Shown here piece by piece: positions 1-33,974 of a DNA stretch of 38,637 bases. Below the pieces are notes generated by a model. The model had not been told where the DNA came from. It worked only from the letters and a program-made list of their open reading frames with translations, and did not search any database. How positions within the stretch are numbered: position 1 is the first letter of the stretch; every line of letters begins with the position of its first letter. The stretch covers positions 1 through 38,637 of the IMG/VR virus record IMGVR_UViG_3300025073_000105. The stretch is one strand, 5' to 3'. This DNA is from a virus. Position numbers and translations under genes: made by a program.

Positions 1-32
1 ATTAAATCGGCTGTTTTTTGTGAGTAGTCCAT
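1..32 (-). CDS. 46-aa hypothetical protein, N-terminal part (gene crosses the window ends)
   Basis: The minus-strand ATG at 32-30 opens a frame (MDYSQKTADL...) that runs off base 1. Joined to base 38637 it continues without a stop to TGA at 38531-38529. The two pieces (32 + 109 nt) sum to 141 nt, exactly 47 codons. I recognise no family; the product is small and charged. It lies 51 nt downstream of the RNase H gene in the same leftward operon. Its main value is showing that the ends join. Confidence 0.7.
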   Translation of the reverse strand, partial: MDYSQKTADL

Positions 33-83
33 ATATATTAATTATATTTAAATATTTCTAAAATAAAGTTTTTAATTTCTTTA

Positions 84-488
84 TTAGTTCCTTCTACCAA
101 ACAAATCCCCATCTTCTGTTTTAAAATTGTTCTCAATATAAATACCAGCTTGGTTTTGTTCTCGTGGTACTTGTGTAACGGTTAGTTTCTTAAATATAAT
201 ATTTTCTTTTGCTTCTTTGGCTCTTGGCGATAAATCTGGTCTAGCTTTACAAAAACCATTTTTTGCCCAATCTTTAGCAACTTGGCTATCAGTAACAATT
301 TCATCTCCCATACTTGCAAATTGACTAGCTTTGTTTATTCCGAGTAGCTCGGCTTCGTTGTTTGTAAAGTTTTCTTGTAAAATATGTTCTCTATGTAATC
401 TCTCCCCCAGTTCTGTTGTCAGAACATACCCTCCCCCCTTTTGGCTTGGGTTTTTTCCTATCGTATATCCGTCCGTGTATATTTTCAT
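84..488 (-). CDS. RNase H-like nuclease
   Basis: A 134-aa protein with the RNase HI layout: beta-strand 1 with the first acidic residue (IYTDG, D6), a glycine-rich turn (KGGGYVL), NNEAELLGI with the second acidic residue, and VTDSQVAKDW with the third. A C-terminal VPREQNQAG stands where the last acidic/His motif normally is, and that fourth acidic residue is not obvious. Family role: it cleaves RNA in RNA:DNA hybrids, for example replication primers or R-loops. It is a single domain of near-usual length. It starts inside the 3' end of the upstream RHH-like gene, in the typical ATAAATATG context without an SD. It is the only replication-related enzyme I can see, which suggests the host supplies the polymerase. 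Confidence 0.75.
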   Translation of the reverse strand: MKIYTDGYTIGKNPSQKGGGYVLTTELGERLHREHILQENFTNNEAELLGINKASQFASMGDEIVTDSQVAKDWAKNGFCKARPDLSPRAKEAKENIIFKKLTVTQVPREQNQAGIYIENNFKTEDGDLFGRRN

Positions 489-621
489 ATTTATCTAGTA
501 TGTTAATAAATAGGTAATTAAAACTTACTTGTTCTTTTTTCTTTAAATTGTTTAGTCTTTCAACTGTTTTGCTATTTAATCTAAAACAGTATGTTTTGTA
601 ACTTATCTTCTCTGTACTCAT
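391..621 (-). CDS. Small ribbon-helix-helix-like putative DNA-binding protein
   Basis: A 76-aa ORF, first gene of the leftward operon. Residues about 7-45 (YKTYCFRLNSKTVERLNNL then a helix to about 45) look like an Arc/MetJ-type ribbon-helix-helix: one strand of alternating residues followed by two amphipathic helices. The C-terminal third is Lys/Gly/Pro-rich and overlaps the RNase H start by 98 nt in another frame, so the real product might be shorter or the tail disordered. As the promoter-proximal gene beside a palindromic divergent promoter it would be a natural autoregulator. That role is inferred from position only. The start is the ATG at 621, with a weak distal TAAGG about 11 nt upstream. 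Confidence 0.55.
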   Translation of the reverse strand: MSTEKISYKTYCFRLNSKTVERLNNLKKKEQVSFNYLFINILDKYENIHGRIYDRKKPKPKGGRVCSDNRTGGEIT

Positions 622-999
622 AATTGTAATACCTTATTGTATGACATTAACACTCCCGCCCTTACAACCTTGTCTGTTTAACAGTAATTAGTAACAAGTC
701 TCTCTGGTGGTTTTATTTAACTTTAGAAGTAACTTGTGTCTTTTAGGTTGTTTAAAGAACGTAACAGCATAAGGCAGTCAATTTGAGCCGAACTGCAAGC
801 CCAAGGAATATCTTGTTATAAGCCATTTAGTGTCCGCTTATAAGAGGTGATAATAACCCCGAGTGAGGACAATATAAAAAAACTACTTGCGAAGTAACTC
901 TAATTTACCTTTTTAGGGGCAGGCTAGAGTACTTTCGTAAATAGTTTTTAGTATCCAACCTTTAAATTTTAGTTACTTCGGCACACGTTGTGCATAACA
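622..999 (-). ncRNA. Structured 5' leader of the leftward operon (about 370 nt, no ORF)
   Basis: No credible gene lies between the minus promoter at 1000-1028 and the RHH gene. The leader RNA would begin near 993 and contains several inverted repeats. GCACA/TGTGC (981-985/989-993) forms a hairpin at the 5' end. A perfect 10-bp long-range pair joins 971-980 to 890-899. CTCTA/TAGAG and CCT/AGG pairs lie inside it. A hairpin TACTT-CGC-AAGTA followed by T7 sits at 896-876. A perfect 8-bp pair TTATAAGC/GCTTATAA is at 816-823/836-843. GAAGTAACT recurs at 726-734. The whole looks like a regulatory leader or ncRNA; the function is unknown. Confidence 0.5.
876..896 (-). terminator. Putative attenuator/intrinsic terminator in the leftward leader
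   Basis: On the minus strand, TACTT (896-892), loop CGC and AAGTA (888-884) are followed by G and seven U residues (882-876). The stem is only 5 bp, so it would be weak alone. Its 5' arm overlaps the segment 899-890 that can instead pair perfectly over 10 bp with 980-971. That is the usual terminator/antiterminator competition of attenuators. Confidence 0.5.
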
Positions 1000-1028
1000 A
1001 ATATAACACACTTACAAGATAATGTCAA
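1000..1028 (-). promoter_or_regulatory. Sigma70 promoter for the leftward operon
   Basis: On the minus strand, TTGACA (1028-1023), a 17-bp spacer and TATATT (1005-1000) make a near-consensus promoter. The expected start is near 993, at the base of the GCACA/TGTGC hairpin. Its -35 abuts the -35 of a rightward promoter. Confidence 0.75.
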
Positions 1029-1034
1029 TATTGA
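1025..1034. promoter_or_regulatory. Palindromic operator candidate between divergent promoters
   Basis: TCAATATTGA is a perfect 10-bp palindrome overlapping both back-to-back -35 elements. A protein bound here would block or co-regulate both operons. The overlapping 12-mer ATATTGATTTAT (1028-1039) is repeated exactly at 5082-5093, at the portal start. Confidence 0.5.
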
Positions 1035-1059
1035 TTTATCCCCAAATATGTGGTATATT
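1031..1059 (+). promoter_or_regulatory. Sigma70-like promoter, rightward
   Basis: TTGATT (1031-1036), 17 bp, TATATT (1054-1059). The -35 is imperfect but the spacing is ideal. It sits 28 bp before the ATG of the 95-aa gene and is divergent from the promoter at 1000-1028. Confidence 0.55.
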
Positions 1060-1086
1060 ATATATGTTATTTTTGTAGGTAACAAT

Positions 1087-1374
1087 ATGATTACATTAAG
1101 TGGTTTAAAGATCAAGTTTGACCAGAAGTTTAGAAGAAAAGAAGAATTAAAAAAGATTTTTATTAATCGGTGCCACAATTTTGACGAATCTAAACGTCGG
1201 ACATTTTTAAATGATAGTGCTTATATTTCTGACAGTCAATACTGTTGTAACCAACAAATTGAGATAAATGAATTGTATAGGGAACTTGATCAGATTTCAA
1301 AAGAGATTTCAGAAAGATGTGAAGGTGAAAAAACCGTATTAAAATCAGGAATGTTGTCATTTAAAAGTGAATAA
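1087..1374 (+). CDS. 95-aa hypothetical protein
   Basis: The start is set at ATG 1087 because the longer frame would begin inside the promoter, and because AGGT lies 7 nt upstream as a modest SD. The product begins MITLSGLKIKFDQKF. It is charged, mostly helical in character, with four cysteines and a likely coiled coil at about 55-80 (EINELYRELDQISKEISE). I do not recognise a family. As the first rightward gene from the divergent control region it may be an early regulator; that is inference from position. A second promoter follows its stop directly. Confidence 0.6.
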   Translation: MITLSGLKIKFDQKFRRKEELKKIFINRCHNFDESKRRTFLNDSAYISDSQYCCNQQIEINELYRELDQISKEISERCEGEKTVLKSGMLSFKSE

Positions 1375-1375
1375 C

Positions 1376-1404
1376 TTGACAAAATATATTTAATATGCTA
1401 CGAT
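1376..1404 (+). promoter_or_regulatory. Sigma70 promoter of the structured-RNA unit
   Basis: TTGACA (1376-1381), 17 bp, TACGAT (1399-1404); expected start near 1411. It lies immediately after the stop codon of the 95-aa gene and directs transcription into the RNA / micro-ORF / terminator / tRNA block. Confidence 0.75.
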
Positions 1405-1553
1405 TAGTTTAATCCTCTGAGTTATCTCAATTCCTTACCGAAGAACACCATCATATTACGATTAGCTGACAAGGCGAAGTTGGGGTATGGTAGTTTTGAA
1501 AACCGAGTGTTGAGAGAACCTAGCGGATTTTAACCGTCATTTAGCTTGTAACT

Positions 1554-1601
1554 ATGGCTGGTAAAAAAACAACTAAAAAGAAAAAAGGTAGTAAGTGTTA
1601 A
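1554..1601 (+). CDS. 15-aa Lys-rich micro-ORF (leader peptide candidate)
   Basis: ATG at 1554 encodes MAGKKTTKKKKGSKC and stops at TAA 1599-1601. Seven of 15 residues are Lys. No clear SD is present. The last codons and the stop form the 5' arm of the terminator hairpin at 1594-1616, so a translating ribosome would disrupt the terminator. That arrangement is typical of attenuator leader peptides. Alternatively it is a tiny basic nucleic-acid-binding peptide, or not translated at all. Confidence 0.45.
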   Translation: MAGKKTTKKKKGSKC

Positions 1602-1623
1602 TTTTTTGTTAACGCTTTTTTTT
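1594..1623 (+). terminator. Intrinsic terminator
   Basis: AGTGTTAA (1594-1601) pairs with TTAACGCT (1609-1616) over 8 bp with one G-U. The loop is TTTTTTG and an eight-U tract (1616-1623) follows. It overlaps the stop codon of the micro-ORF and ends 4 nt before the tRNA. Confidence 0.8.
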
Positions 1624-1627
1624 ATAT

Positions 1628-1698
1628 CGCTTGGTGGAGTAAAGGCAACTCGTCGGGCTCATAATCCGAAGACGTCAGTTCGATTCTGACCCTTGCAA
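1628..1698 (+). tRNA. tRNA-Met, initiator-like (anticodon CAT)
   Basis: 71 nt without an encoded CCA. D arm GAGT/ACTC with GG in the loop (1637-1651); anticodon arm TCGGG-CTCATAA-TCCGA (1653-1669) with anticodon CAT at 1660-1662; T arm GTCAG-TTCGATT-CTGAC (1674-1690). It closely follows bacterial initiator tRNA: C1-A72 at the acceptor end, the ...GGTGGAG... 5' region, CTCGTCGGGCTCATAA, and a GCAAC 3' end. Oddities: acceptor pairs 4-69 and 5-68 are U-U mismatches, and the third G-C pair of the initiator anticodon stem is a G-U. It may be a functional initiator, or a decayed or repurposed one. Confidence 0.8.
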
Positions 1699-1701
1699 CT
1701 A

Positions 1702-1893
1702 GACAATCTTATTTAAAGACTGGCAACAAGACACTTCGATTACTTCGTTATGACGCTATTGTGGGGTGAGCCTCCAATAACCTGTTATAACCTAGAATTA
1801 AGTGATAGACCAAGCACGCCAGTTTTATTGCCTTGGTCTTTAGGTAGTAGATTGTCATAATAGCTCAACGACTTATCCTCGAAGGTAGTCGTT
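1702..1893 (+). ncRNA. Structured intergenic RNA after the tRNA
   Basis: This stretch has no gene but many complementary segments. GACAATCT (1702-1709) pairs perfectly with AGATTGTC (1849-1856), closing about 155 nt. Inside are TATTG-GGGG/CCTC-CAATA (1757-1779, TGAG loop) and AGACCAAG/CTTGGTCT (1807-1814/1832-1839). Directly after is AACGACT/AGTCGTT (1867-1873/1887-1893) with an inner CCT/AGG. Such nesting is unlikely by chance and suggests a folded RNA, but I recognise no family. Confidence 0.5.
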
Positions 1894-1967
1894 TGGCTGT
1901 GTGAAATAATTATTAAAAACCTATCAGACGAACACTCGTTTAGATATGGGGAATTAAACAAAAACGT

Positions 1968-2450
1968 ATGCAGAAAATTAAACTGCAATCAATTCGTATA
2001 GTAGAGTTAACTAATGTAGTAGATGCGATCTCTTCAAAGGATCTCTCAACAGTTAAAGACGTTCGTTTGAATGTCAACTTAGTAGAGGATCTAAGAAAAG
2101 CAAACCAAGCTCTAACTACAATGGTAGAAGATTTCAACGTAAAGCGAGACGCTATTCTAAAACCATACCAACAGGAATATGTAGAGAAGTCTCAAGGTTT
2201 AGAAGAAGAAGAAGCAAAAGCACTTTCTGCTGAATTAGACAAAAAGATGAATGAGGAACAGAAAGAAGTATTACTAGCAACAAAACCAGCTCAAGAAGCT
2301 ATCGAAGCTGCAAGTAAAGAAGTTGTAGAGTTTGAACTTTCAGATGACAAATTTGCTAAGCTTAAAGAATGGGTAGAGAAATTTGGTGTAGCTAAATTCT
2401 CAAACAAAAAAGCATTCTTGGAAGTTTGTGACGCTTTAAATATTGAATAA
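1968..2450 (+). CDS. 160-aa helical/coiled-coil protein
   Basis: Soluble and highly charged. Residues 40-125 are rich in Glu/Lys heptads (EDLRKANQALTTMVEDFNVK and following), with a short globular tail (about 128-160, ending FLEVCDALNIE). This length and character are common among small phage proteins of unknown function. I cannot assign a role. The nearest upstream G-rich segment is ATATGGGGA (1944-1952), a motif also found before 4735 and 5092. It starts the block leading to terminase, 7 nt upstream of the next ORF. Confidence 0.75.
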   Translation: MQKIKLQSIRIVELTNVVDAISSKDLSTVKDVRLNVNLVEDLRKANQALTTMVEDFNVKRDAILKPYQQEYVEKSQGLEEEEAKALSAELDKKMNEEQKEVLLATKPAQEAIEAASKEVVEFELSDDKFAKLKEWVEKFGVAKFSNKKAFLEVCDALNIE

Positions 2451-2457
2451 TAAATAT

Positions 2458-2790
2458 ATGTGGGGTAAAAAACTTGTAACAAGAGAAGAACTAGAAAGAG
2501 CACTTGATAAGTTTCTAAAATATAGATACGAAGACAAACAGGAGATTGATAAATTATATCAGCGAATCTCATTCTTAGAGCAAGAACTAGGTTTAAGAGA
2601 TAAGGAAAAAGAAAAGAATTGTTGGTATTTGATTGCTTCAGAATATCCTGGCCTTAGTTTGGGAGGTAATATACCAGTTAAAAAAGACAAAACACTAAGT
2701 GTTGTTGAAAAGGTAGAAGCTCTCATGAAACACTTTAAGCTTAAACTTGAAGATGTCCCAGAGAGTACAAAATTAGTTAAAAGTAAGTAG
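2458..2790 (+). CDS. 110-aa hypothetical protein with coiled coil
   Basis: The start is placed at ATG 2458 (TAATAAATATATG). The upstream TTG would overlap the previous gene. Residues 8-50 form a charged helix pair (LVTREELERALDKF..., DKLYQRISFLEQELGL). The C-terminal half (VVEKVEALMKHFKLKLEDVP) is also helical. No catalytic motif. It sits in tandem with the 160-aa gene and upstream of terminase, so a DNA-metabolism or packaging-accessory role is possible but unproven. Confidence 0.7.
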   Translation: MWGKKLVTREELERALDKFLKYRYEDKQEIDKLYQRISFLEQELGLRDKEKEKNCWYLIASEYPGLSLGGNIPVKKDKTLSVVEKVEALMKHFKLKLEDVPESTKLVKSK

Positions 2791-2795
2791 TTTTA

Positions 2796-2822
2796 CCTGG
2801 AGCTAGGCTTGTAAGCTTCAGG
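2796..2822 (+). other. Intergenic RNA hairpin
   Basis: CCTGGAGC (2796-2803) pairs with GCTTCAGG (2815-2822), 8 bp with one G-U, around an 11-nt loop. It lies 12 nt before the next ATG. There is no U-tract, so it is not a classical terminator; it may be a processing or translation-control element. Confidence 0.45.
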
Positions 2823-2834
2823 ATAAGACCATTT

Positions 2835-3020
2835 ATGAAACAATATATTTTAAGAAAAATCTTTATGGCCGAGAGTATTCAAGATGCTCTAAACCAAGAG
2901 AAGAAACATAAACCAGAAAGTGTGTGGTTAGATGAAGAGTGGGTAAAGAACCAACCACCAACACCAGTAGCTGGTTTCAAAGCGTATGGAAGAACAAACA
3001 ACAAAGGGAACACTAAATGA
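2835..3020 (+). CDS. 61-aa hypothetical protein
   Basis: Small soluble ORF; an internal ATG at 2865 (MAESIQDALNQEKKH) is an alternative start. The C-terminal half is Pro/Asn-rich. It overlaps the terminase small subunit start by 35 nt in another frame and ends with TGA, one of the few TGA stops here. No recognisable domain. Its position suggests translation coupled to the terminase small subunit. Confidence 0.5.
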   Translation: MKQYILRKIFMAESIQDALNQEKKHKPESVWLDEEWVKNQPPTPVAGFKAYGRTNNKGNTK

Positions 3021-3513
3021 GAAGCAAGAACTATTTTGTAAAATATATACTGGAGACGATCGTGAGTTATACGGAAATGGTACTCAAAGCTACTTGGAAG
3101 TGTATGGTTATGAAGATGAGAATGGCAAAGCGGTTAGCTATGTTTCCGCTATGGCAGCAGCTTCTCGGCTGTTAAGGAACGTTAAGATTTGCAACCGCAT
3201 CAACGAACTGTTAGAAACTGGAGGATTTAATGATCAGAACGTAGACAAGCAACACCTGTTCCTAATCAACCAACACGCTGATCTGAAATCTAAACTAGGA
3301 GCGATTAAAGAATATAATGCACTGAAGAAGCGAGTAGAGAACAAGTTAGAACTCATACTCCCACAACCAATCTTATCAAATGTACAAAATAACCACAGCA
3401 ACGAGAAAGATAATGTTGATGACGAAACGGATCAAGGCGATTCAGGGGGGAACGAGTGCGTCGAAAACAATCTCGGTGCTTCTATACTTGATACACTTAG
3501 CCCAAAGCGATAA
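2986..3513 (+). CDS. Terminase small subunit
   Basis: 175 aa resembling the Terminase_2 type. Residues 10-110 hold the helical DNA-binding core (LNEKQELFCKIY ... GNGTQSYLEVYG ... AMAAASRLLRNVKICNRINEL), where a first helix is followed by ASRLLRN repeats and the helix INELLETGGFNDQNVDKQHL. The tail (about 130-175) is acidic and overlaps the start of the large subunit by 134 nt. Role: recognises phage DNA and recruits the large subunit. It sits immediately upstream of the large subunit, as usual. No SD is visible. Confidence 0.8.
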   Translation: MEEQTTKGTLNEKQELFCKIYTGDDRELYGNGTQSYLEVYGYEDENGKAVSYVSAMAAASRLLRNVKICNRINELLETGGFNDQNVDKQHLFLINQHADLKSKLGAIKEYNALKKRVENKLELILPQPILSNVQNNHSNEKDNVDDETDQGDSGGNECVENNLGASILDTLSPKR

Positions 3514-4567
3514 GGTTGCAACATTGACAAGTGTCGTTTCAGAGTCATTCCCACACTTGAAACGTGGTGTGATGAGAGACTTTCTCAACATCATGCAAGA
3601 TCATGGATATTTCAAAGAAGGAAGATGGAACAAGACAGATTCAATCTATTCGTTTGAAACAGGTAGTAAGATAGAGTTCTTTTCAGCAGATCAACCCAGT
3701 AAAGTGCGAGGTCCTAGACGTGACAGACTATTCTTAAATGAGTGTAATAACATTCCTTACGAAGCGTTTGATCAACTAGAGGTCCGTACTAAAGATTCTA
3801 TTTATCTTGATTGGAATCCAACAAACGAGTTCTGGTTCTATACCGAAGAACGCTTAAAGAAAGACGATGTCGAGCATATTATCTTAACATACTTAGACAA
3901 CGAAGCTTTATCACCAGAGATTATTAAGAGTATCGAGCAGCGTAAAGACAACAAAGCGTGGTGGAAGGTTTATGGTGAAGGACAGTTAGGTGAGGTTGAT
4001 GGTAAGATTTATAAAGACTGGAAGATCATTGATGAAATACCACACGAAGCAAGATTGGTTAAATATGGACTGGACTTCGGATATACAAACGATCCAACTA
4101 CTATAGTAGCAATATATTATTTTAACGGAGCATATTTATTAGATGAAATTACTTTTGAAAAAGGTTTAACAAACAGAAACATAGTAGACATTTTAAAACT
4201 ACAGTCCAAATCAATTATCATAGCAGATAGTGCAGAGCCTAAGAGCATAGATGAGATTAGAGGATATGGTATCTCAATAATGGGAGCTGTCAAAGGTCCA
4301 GGAAGTATCTTGCAAGGCATTCAATACGTTCAAGCACAGAAGATCAGTGTCACTAAAAGAAGTGTAAATATCATAAAAGAATACCGCAACTACTTCTGGA
4401 TCACTGATAGAGACGGAAAGATATTGAATGAACCAGACCATGCTTACTCGCACAGTATGGACGCTATCAGATACGCTTTCGGTGCAATTAAAGGACTAGA
4501 ACGACCAGTTAGAGATAGGGATGTTGTTAAAAGAAAAAAGACAGTTAAATATATGAGGATGGCTTAA
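3380..4567 (+). CDS. Terminase large subunit (ATPase/nuclease)
   Basis: 395 aa, Terminase_3/PBSX-like. The N-terminal ATPase has a Walker A variant IQGGTSASKT (about 22-31) and a Walker B-type strand ending LFLNEC (about 116-121). The C-terminal RNase H-fold nuclease has LDFGYTNDPT (first Asp), IIADSAEP (second) and HSMDAIRYAF (last), the three metal-binding acidic positions. It is the packaging motor that cuts and pumps DNA into the procapsid through the portal. The start at 3380 keeps the usual KITTATRKI N-terminus, at the cost of a 134-nt overlap with the small subunit. Its TAA is followed by T-ATG of the next gene. Confidence 0.93.
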   Translation: MYKITTATRKIMLMTKRIKAIQGGTSASKTISVLLYLIHLAQSDKVATLTSVVSESFPHLKRGVMRDFLNIMQDHGYFKEGRWNKTDSIYSFETGSKIEFFSADQPSKVRGPRRDRLFLNECNNIPYEAFDQLEVRTKDSIYLDWNPTNEFWFYTEERLKKDDVEHIILTYLDNEALSPEIIKSIEQRKDNKAWWKVYGEGQLGEVDGKIYKDWKIIDEIPHEARLVKYGLDFGYTNDPTTIVAIYYFNGAYLLDEITFEKGLTNRNIVDILKLQSKSIIIADSAEPKSIDEIRGYGISIMGAVKGPGSILQGIQYVQAQKISVTKRSVNIIKEYRNYFWITDRDGKILNEPDHAYSHSMDAIRYAFGAIKGLERPVRDRDVVKRKKTVKYMRMA

Positions 4568-7527: not shown

Positions 7528-7641
7528 ATGAAAGAATCAAAGAAAATGGAAAAGATGGAGAAAAAGATGAAGGGATATGATATGCCTTTCAAGAAAAGTG
7601 CAATGAAGAAAACAAAAGCTAAAGCAGCTAAAAGAAAATAG
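7528..7641 (+). CDS. 37-aa very basic peptide
   Basis: ATG at 7528 follows TAG-T. The product (MKESKKMEKMEKKMKGYDMP...) has about 16 Lys/Arg and seven Met in 37 residues. It is arginine/lysine-tailed and probably binds DNA or RNA, or is virion-packaged. The intact coupling to its neighbour and lack of alternatives make translation plausible. Confidence 0.55.
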   Translation: MKESKKMEKMEKKMKGYDMPFKKSAMKKTKAKAAKRK

Positions 7642-7787
7642 GTTCACCTTTGGTGGCCCTACCCACCTTGATCAAATAGTGATTGTCCCCATAGTCATTA
7701 AATGTTCAAGGGTTGTGGGTTCATCAAATATTAATTCAAATCATAAGCTGGGAGAACGAACCCAGTTGAAATAAGCGTTTTAAAATT
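7642..7787 (+). other. Intergenic region with hairpins before the capsid block
   Basis: 146 nt without a gene. AGCTGGG/CCCAGTT (7746-7752/7761-7767, 7 bp with one G-U, 8-nt loop AGAACGAA) lies 20 nt before the scaffold ATG. A GGTGG/CCACC pair lies near the start. There is no promoter match and no U-tract, so a processing or translation-control role is more likely than termination. Confidence 0.4.
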
Positions 7788-8465
7788 ATGTTTGAAAAAA
7801 CAAAAGCAAGTACTGAAGCAAATTCAGTCGAGGATATTAAAAAAGACTTTAATTCAGAGGAAGACACCTCATCTGCCGCTGGTCCGACAGAAGAAAACGA
7901 ATCTGGTAACGAGGGAGACACCTCTACAAACGAAGCTGAAGAAGCTGAAAGCCAGAAAGAAGAGAAAGTAACTCTTTCAAAATCTGAATACGAACAGATG
8001 GTCTCGGATCGTGATAACTACAAACAAGGTATGTTGTCCGCCAAGGCAGCGAAACGTTCTCTAGTCGAGCCTAAAGCTGAAGAAGCTGAGCAGGTTGACG
8101 TGAATGAGGAAATTGTGGTTGGTGTTTTATCTAAACAGACTGAAAAATCTGCTTTAAAGAACACAATCAACCCAAAACATGCTGATTATATTCAAGAATT
8201 AATTGATGACAATCAGTATAACGAAATTATTGGTTATTTACCTAGGAATGTTGATAAAACTTCTTACGAATCTATAGTTAAGGGATTAAAGCTAGCAACT
8301 AAACTATGGAAAGAAGAAAGAGGAATTGTTGATAAACCAGTTAAAAAACAGGTAGATTTACATACATCTAAAGCCGTTGCTTCAAGTTCTGGAAACGTAG
8401 AGGTTAAAAAACCTCAAGGTAGAAAGATTTTGAAGACTGGCCGTGGTGCAGGTACTTGGTATTAA
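7788..8465 (+). CDS. Capsid scaffolding protein (putative)
   Basis: 225 aa located between portal and capsid genes. Residues 1-85 are very acidic and low complexity (Glu/Ser/Thr/Ala), followed by a short coiled coil (about 65-80). The C-terminal part is basic (KKPQGRKILKTGRGAGTW), where scaffolds usually contact the coat protein. This composition and location are typical of scaffolding proteins that direct procapsid assembly and leave before packaging. There is no protease motif. Confidence 0.65.
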   Translation: MFEKTKASTEANSVEDIKKDFNSEEDTSSAAGPTEENESGNEGDTSTNEAEEAESQKEEKVTLSKSEYEQMVSDRDNYKQGMLSAKAAKRSLVEPKAEEAEQVDVNEEIVVGVLSKQTEKSALKNTINPKHADYIQELIDDNQYNEIIGYLPRNVDKTSYESIVKGLKLATKLWKEERGIVDKPVKKQVDLHTSKAVASSSGNVEVKKPQGRKILKTGRGAGTWY

Positions 8466-8484
8466 TTTAAAATAATAAAAATTT

Positions 8485-8895
8485 ATGTCATTCGTTCCAG
8501 TTCGAGATTTCGAAGGCAAAAATATGGAACTTCTAATGGGCGGTTCTTCCGCTTTAGTCAAAGGAGCACTTGCAAAGATGACTTCAGGTTATCTACAGAT
8601 TGCAGCTGCTGGCGACAACGAAGTCGAGTATATGTCTAACGAAACAAAATCAAATTCAGTAGCAGGTGCAGCAAGTGCAAATGTGTTGCCAATTAGTGGT
8701 GATATGCAATTTGAAGCTCTTTGTTCTACAACTCCAGTACAAGCAACTCATGTTGGTAACGACTATGACCTTGCAACTGATGCTAACGATGTTGATTTGG
8801 GTGCTACAACAGACAAAGTATTCCATATCGACTACATTAAAAGTGCAGCAGACAAAATCGTAGTTGGACGCTTTAATAAACCAGCAATCGCTTAA
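8485..8895 (+). CDS. Capsid decoration/stabilisation protein (putative)
   Basis: 136 aa immediately upstream of the major capsid gene. Small, beta-rich, Ala/Val-rich, with an N-terminal segment containing GSSALVKGALAKMTSGYLQ, like the DUF2190-type proteins that trimerise on phage capsids. It probably coats or cements the capsid surface. Assignment is from position, size and character only. Confidence 0.5.
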   Translation: MSFVPVRDFEGKNMELLMGGSSALVKGALAKMTSGYLQIAAAGDNEVEYMSNETKSNSVAGAASANVLPISGDMQFEALCSTTPVQATHVGNDYDLATDANDVDLGATTDKVFHIDYIKSAADKIVVGRFNKPAIA

Positions 8896-33581: not shown

Positions 33582-33974
33582 TTATTTAATATCAATATCT
33601 GGGATAATAACTGATGGTTTGAAGATAACTTTATAATGATAAACATCAACACCAGCACTTTTTATTTGCTCGACAAAATAGGTTACATTATCTGAAAGAC
33701 CAAGGAAGTGTTTTTTAAATTCAGTTTGTCCTGTTTTGCAAGTTACGCTAAGTTGCCCTGCCATATCTGAATTTCCCAAAGAACATAACCCCTCTATTGT
33801 CAGCATATATTCTCCAGAAATTCCATTATAGAATACAATACGTCTGTTAATTTGGAATTGGTCTGCGGCTTTTGACAGATTATACGAAGCGACATCGGCG
33901 TCTGAACATCCAGCCCCCAACAACATTACAGATACTAATATGGTCGGTATAATTAAAAACTTTTTCCATTTCAT
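33582..33974 (-). CDS. Beta-sandwich phage lipoprotein
   Basis: 130 aa with a signal peptide (MKWKKFLIIPTILVSVMLL) and a lipobox ending at C23 (LGAGC). The mature part contains NLSKAADQFQINRRIVFYNG and TIEGLCSLGN ... FLGLSDNVTYFVEQI. It is very close to a lipoprotein family found in phages of widely different hosts, so horizontal spread is likely. It would be anchored in the cell envelope, possibly excluding other phages; the role is not established from sequence. Its 60-nt leader contains one CACCTAATATAAT linker copy. Confidence 0.8.
   Translation of the reverse strand: MKWKKFLIIPTILVSVMLLGAGCSDADVASYNLSKAADQFQINRRIVFYNGISGEYMLTIEGLCSLGNSDMAGQLSVTCKTGQTEFKKHFLGLSDNVTYFVEQIKSAGVDVYHYKVIFKPSVIIPDIDIK

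Follow-up and report, generated by a model that had tools for sequence, protein, structure and literature searches.

The region at 1376-1624 on the + strand of the viral record analyzed here, a stretch of 38,637 nucleotides that we call the window, has the makings of a promoter-proximal, prematurely terminated leader that gates the rightward (packaging/structural) operon, a reading that we hold to be evenly balanced between right and wrong. What the region represents is a recurring transcription-control layout, not a new RNA family. Under the gating reading, host RNA polymerase would start near position 1411 without a phage factor, make a folded RNA of approximately 210 nt, and mostly halt at a terminator with a U8 tract, leaving ends at about 1620-1624. 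Were termination relieved, either by a putative protein or by the folded leader itself, the polymerase would read through into a tRNA, a second folded RNA at 1702-1859, the gene at 1968-2450, and the terminase genes. This would make the terminator a gate like that of lambda pR'-tR', whose leader is about 200 nt long, and the leftward arm of the genome would be built alike. Termination itself, along with the existence and nature of an anti-terminating factor, is what we infer from the sequence.

The record carries genes for the small and large terminase subunits (TerS and TerL). Rightward (+) genes span 1087 to 29364, and leftward (-) genes lie below 621 and again beyond about 29.3 kb, up to where the record ends. 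Judged by gene content, the leftward block is probably "early" and the rightward, packaging/structural block probably "late." Because the rightward block starts at 1087, with one + ORF (1087-1374) ahead of the promoter, the promoter-leader-terminator unit sits near the head of that block and upstream of TerS/TerL. No relatives of the local genes at 1087-1374 and 1968-2450 were detectable, and a host search returned matches only to three unclassified or doubtful MAG contigs. Elsewhere in the window, the ORF at 33582-33974 (-) strongly matches a PHROG annotated as a recombination directionality factor (VG64 family); despite this family member, no integrase was found among the window ORFs scanned, which weakens the case for an attP in the tRNA.

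The predicted sigma-70 promoter at 1376-1404 (+) reads TTGACA-N17-TACGAT and carries a TG extension. A consensus scan gave it 10 of 12 positions with an extended -10, in keeping with the near-consensus promoter that a sequence-only reading of this DNA had proposed, and among the + strand sites of the window scoring at least 10, it alone has a -35 box matching at all six positions. A TTTAAT seen by eye lies at 1408-1413, a possible counterpart of the -10-like pause element of lambda late leaders, and transcription would be expected to start at about 1411. Approximately 213 nt separate this presumed start from the U8 tract of the predicted intrinsic terminator at 1593-1624 (+). The same reading had called this terminator strong and had placed the stop codon of a short ORF in its 5' arm; the terminator and the TAA in its arm are both there, but "strong" overstates a 10-bp AT-rich stem with a fold of -8.4 kcal/mol, and the strength of the terminator rests on the U8 tract. 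Between 1376 and 3500, no further + promoter scoring at least 10/12 was found. Since none lies between this promoter and the terminase genes, expression of the tRNA and of the genes downstream probably needs read-through, or else transcription from further upstream.

Terminase-family relatives are plentiful, and although searches found no homologue of the leader, the layout recurs among them. Upstream of TerL, 10 pairs of a strong promoter followed by a terminator were counted, compared with a mean of 0.8 and a maximum of 3 in shuffled sequence. Control counts gave 5 such pairs on the - strand upstream of TerL and 6 downstream of it. As these controls are not empty, part of the TerL-upstream signal reflects real genomes having real promoters and terminators, and the promoter-terminator theme is not unique to this site. 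A folding-based scan of all loci examined 115 strong intergenic promoters and placed a hairpin and U-tract after 28 of them, where shuffles led one to expect 7.3, a count that may be slightly inflated by overlapping copies of one contig and by two overlapping promoter calls in L081. Close matches to the layout number only three: the window itself and the loci L014 and L038. In L014 (to which L148 is identical), TTGACA-17-TAGAGT is followed by a folded leader, ACTATG..., MGEIILQRHRRSVLLR, a TAG in the terminator arm, U8, and the next gene; in L038, the succession is TTGACT-17-TATTAT, a rod with a long closing stem, ACTATG..., MLVRSNNSFLNI, a TAG in the terminator arm, U8, and the next gene. The micro-ORFs of the matching units are 12-16 codons long, and in both L014 and L038 the next gene begins immediately past the U-tract. 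Relatives sought through the genes that follow the L014 and L038 units were the same phages only. The loop, 3' arm, and U-tract of the window terminator align locally with the L038 terminator over 24 columns, the two having TTTTTGTTAAC plus the U-tract in common (p 0.005 before correction for 45 comparisons). The predicted parts, their order, and the return of the layout in relatives can thus be read off the sequences, and the recurrence suggests an on/off gate for late genes. A recurrent unit was seen shortly after TerL in L022, L023, L043, L046, L050, L061, L071, L155, and L184, each with a strong promoter, a leader of about 45 nt, and a GC-rich hairpin with a U-tract; in several of them, a gene start follows the U-tract at once.

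The same parts would also suit a stand-alone small RNA, a 210-nt transcript acting in trans on host or phage targets, with the terminator as a mere 3' end and the downstream genes transcribed from elsewhere. Bacterial small RNAs usually combine a promoter, a folded body, a single-stranded stretch, and a terminator, and the sequence of such an RNA would be free to vary among phages. However, the stretch 1376-3500 offers no other + promoter of at least 10/12 from which the tRNA/TerS region could be served, and in L014 and L038 the gene that directly follows the U-tract makes the unit leader-like. We consider a trans-acting RNA unlikely.

The leader that the gating reading invokes is predicted to form an irregular rod-like hairpin at 1411-1529 (+), its 5' end set by the presumed transcription start. 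The element of roughly 100 nt with a 9/10 closing stem, described from the letters alone, is indeed present, with 9 of 10 pairs between about 1421-1430 and 1508-1518, but Watson-Crick stems of this quality with arms 70-110 nt apart arise in 5% of shuffles. The fold of 1409-1625 is mildly more stable than shuffled sequence (z -1.75, equaled by 12 of 200 shuffles), and in a z-scan of the + strand, several windows within coding genes of this phage outscore it. On its own, the leader fold is weak evidence, and each part of the unit taken alone is only modestly beyond chance. A 23-mer from the leader core had no exact match in viral contigs, nucleotide searches with the leader gave no significant matches, and the three + leaders (window, L014, and L038) do not align reliably with one another. 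Rfam covariance models, including GOLLD and ROOL, matched no family but tRNA.

Between the leader fold and the terminator lies a 15-codon ORF with seven Lys, MAGKKTTKKKKGSKC, at 1554-1601 (+), as had been noted before, and its TAA (1599-1601) sits within the 5' arm of the terminator (1593-1602). This arrangement invites a translation-coupled attenuator of the pyrBI kind, in which a ribosome on the ORF would cover the 5' arm and so allow read-through, with the accessibility of the AUG as the switch. The stop codon lies inside the terminator 5' arm in all three units, an outcome with a chance of about 10% in each and about 0.001 jointly before allowing for selection. The pattern is suggestive, though the ORF was itself part of what drew attention to these units. 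In E. coli, ribosomes repress terminators located a few bases past a stop codon (PMC4824070), which would favor such coupling; terminators that lie no more than 100 bp into a coding region function normally (PMC4824070), and for an ORF of 15 codons these two rules pull opposite ways. The start context of the micro-ORF is worse than those of all 40 annotated gene starts of the phage and falls at the median of random ATGs. In the window, a small hairpin at 1532-1561 (+), drawn from base-pair probabilities, engages the AUG, which is predicted to be paired in all three units (probability of being unpaired no higher than 0.1 in the window, 0.29 in L014, and 0.06 in L038). Among shuffled leaders, 8-11% contain a 10-25-codon ORF whose end falls in the terminator arm, a chance of about 0.1, and only about one-fifth to one-quarter of some 40 promoter-terminator pairs have such an ORF. 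The peptides of the three units are unrelated and Lys richness is not common to them; a scan of TerL relatives for a Lys-rich ORF with a T-run found no match except the window itself, and no conserved peptide emerged. Given the poor start context, the paired AUG, the roughly 10% chance per leader, and the unrelated peptides, the micro-ORF is probably incidental, and ribosome-controlled attenuation is quite improbable. Of the earlier proposal that translation of the micro-ORF controls read-through into the tRNA and terminase region, what stands is the promoter-leader-terminator unit ahead of that region, with its layout recurring in relatives and on the opposite arm; translation as the controller is not supported.

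The tRNA that the sequence-only reading had noted just downstream of the unit is a tRNA-Met(CAU) at 1628-1699 (+), which comes directly after the U-tract and was called by ARAGORN and given 50.2 bits by Rfam with mismatch marks. Its D, anticodon, and T arms are intact and 3 of its 7 acceptor pairs are mismatched; it may have degenerated as a tRNA or be what is left of an attachment site. A strongly folded, rod-like RNA of 158 nt (1702-1859, +) is predicted to start 2 nt after the tRNA and lies in what would be the read-through leader. The fold of 1700-1967 has a z of -4.68, with no shuffle as good, and this rod is more striking than the promoter-leader-terminator region itself. Taken together, 1405-1967 also has a fold that none of 100 shuffles equaled (z -3.34). 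These values would fit one large, processed non-coding RNA spanning 1411 to roughly 1960, with the tRNA as a cutting mark between two folded RNAs. L017 offers a parallel in a folded RNA (1735-1840), closed by a 14-bp stem and enclosing three hairpins (z -4.18), immediately 5' of a tRNA-Met and upstream of the terminase genes. Against a single large RNA, the intervening terminator would split the transcript, no Rfam family matches, and the leader, the post-tRNA rod, and the L017 RNA have no resemblance in sequence to one another; we regard it as very unlikely. In L005, nearly 1 kb without long ORFs (7640-8575) holds a tRNA-Leu-like stretch and a tRNA-Asn upstream of the terminase genes.

The opposite arm of the window provides a counterpart to the gated leader. 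A predicted leftward promoter, TTGACA-N17(TG)-TATATT, occupies 1028-1000 (-) and matches at 11 of 12 positions. It is followed at 949-876 (-) by a 72-nt imperfect, terminator-like hairpin, whose 25-nt arms are 80% complementary, and a U7 tract at 882-876. In L038/L202, L204 (the L014 phage), and L119, the U-tract comes 124-145 nt past the start, after a hairpin of 87-96 nt with 21-23 counted pairs and -38 to -39 kcal/mol. Across the opposite-arm units, the hairpin measures 72-96 nt and its U-tract lies some 110-145 nt past the start. In the window, L038, and the L014 phage, each arm thus opens with a promoter, a leader, and a terminator-like hairpin, the hairpin of the opposite arm being the larger. 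L119 has both units as well, but several - strand ORFs lie between them, so they are not a simple divergent pair there. Comparison of the + and - leaders of the window found no significant local match and no put-like common element. The opposite-arm leaders of L202 (1228-1060, -) and L119 (777-590, -) have AACAA-TTA-ATATGCCTAAAA in common, and both contain short ORFs beginning MPK... that run through the terminator hairpin. Because the layout is enriched in relatives and the opposite arm matches, it is highly improbable that the region is a chance neighborhood of functionless promoter- and terminator-like sequence in an AT-rich intergenic region, for all that promoter-like sites are common (20 in 1-4000, with 12.3 expected) and the fold is modest (z -1.75).

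A broader and doubtful proposal is that, in a clade of uncultivated phages, the divergent transcripts of both arms would each open with a folded leader ending ahead of the first gene, and a phage factor or the leader RNA would release the block. Sequence would turn over fast while layout and dimensions persist, and some members would sense translation through a micro-ORF whose end lies in the terminator. No antiterminator or Q-type protein was matched by PHROGs among the window ORFs scanned, a search that would miss a novel protein. If gating of this kind is real, a promoter, leader, and terminator at a divergent junction would give a sequence-independent handle for predicting early and late control in unculturable phages, and there would be an antitermination system outside the lambdoid phages, with a factor to look for. 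What makes the finding of interest is that uncultivated phages show the pattern on both arms.

Among known systems, the Theta (HDV-like) ribozymes likewise place a folded RNA right beside a phage tRNA (PMC10879173), but the post-tRNA RNA of the window is a long rod and not a minimal double pseudoknot. With E up to 5, Rfam gave no HDV-family match that would point to a double pseudoknot of this type lying 5 nt or less from where the tRNA ends, and reading by eye found no P1-type partner nearby after 1700. Attenuators of the pyrBI or other ribosome-mediated type likewise set a short ORF beside an intrinsic terminator; in the window, by contrast, the start codon is unfavorable and paired, peptide and codon content are not conserved, and no biosynthetic gene lies downstream. 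Antitermination by Q and by put is established in phages (PMC6606751, PMC9378689), and putL and putR of HK022, like the leaders here, are folded RNAs near the phage transcript start, ahead of terminators, on both arms. The put elements are of about 70 nt with two stem-loops and have their sequence common to both arms (PMC9378689), whereas the arms of the window have no element in common. The statement that no family with this layout is known was too strong, given that phage leaders with gated terminators have been described, as at lambda pR'-tR' (PMC4604602, PMC6606751). The window differs from lambda in that no Q homologue was recognized among the ORFs scanned and in that its terminator is followed by a tRNA and a further folded RNA. 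Like the Q-dependent late operon of lambda, with pR', the 6S leader RNA, and tR', it has a predicted sigma-70 promoter upstream of late genes and a short leader ending at a predicted intrinsic terminator, where read-through would switch the operon on (PMC4604602).
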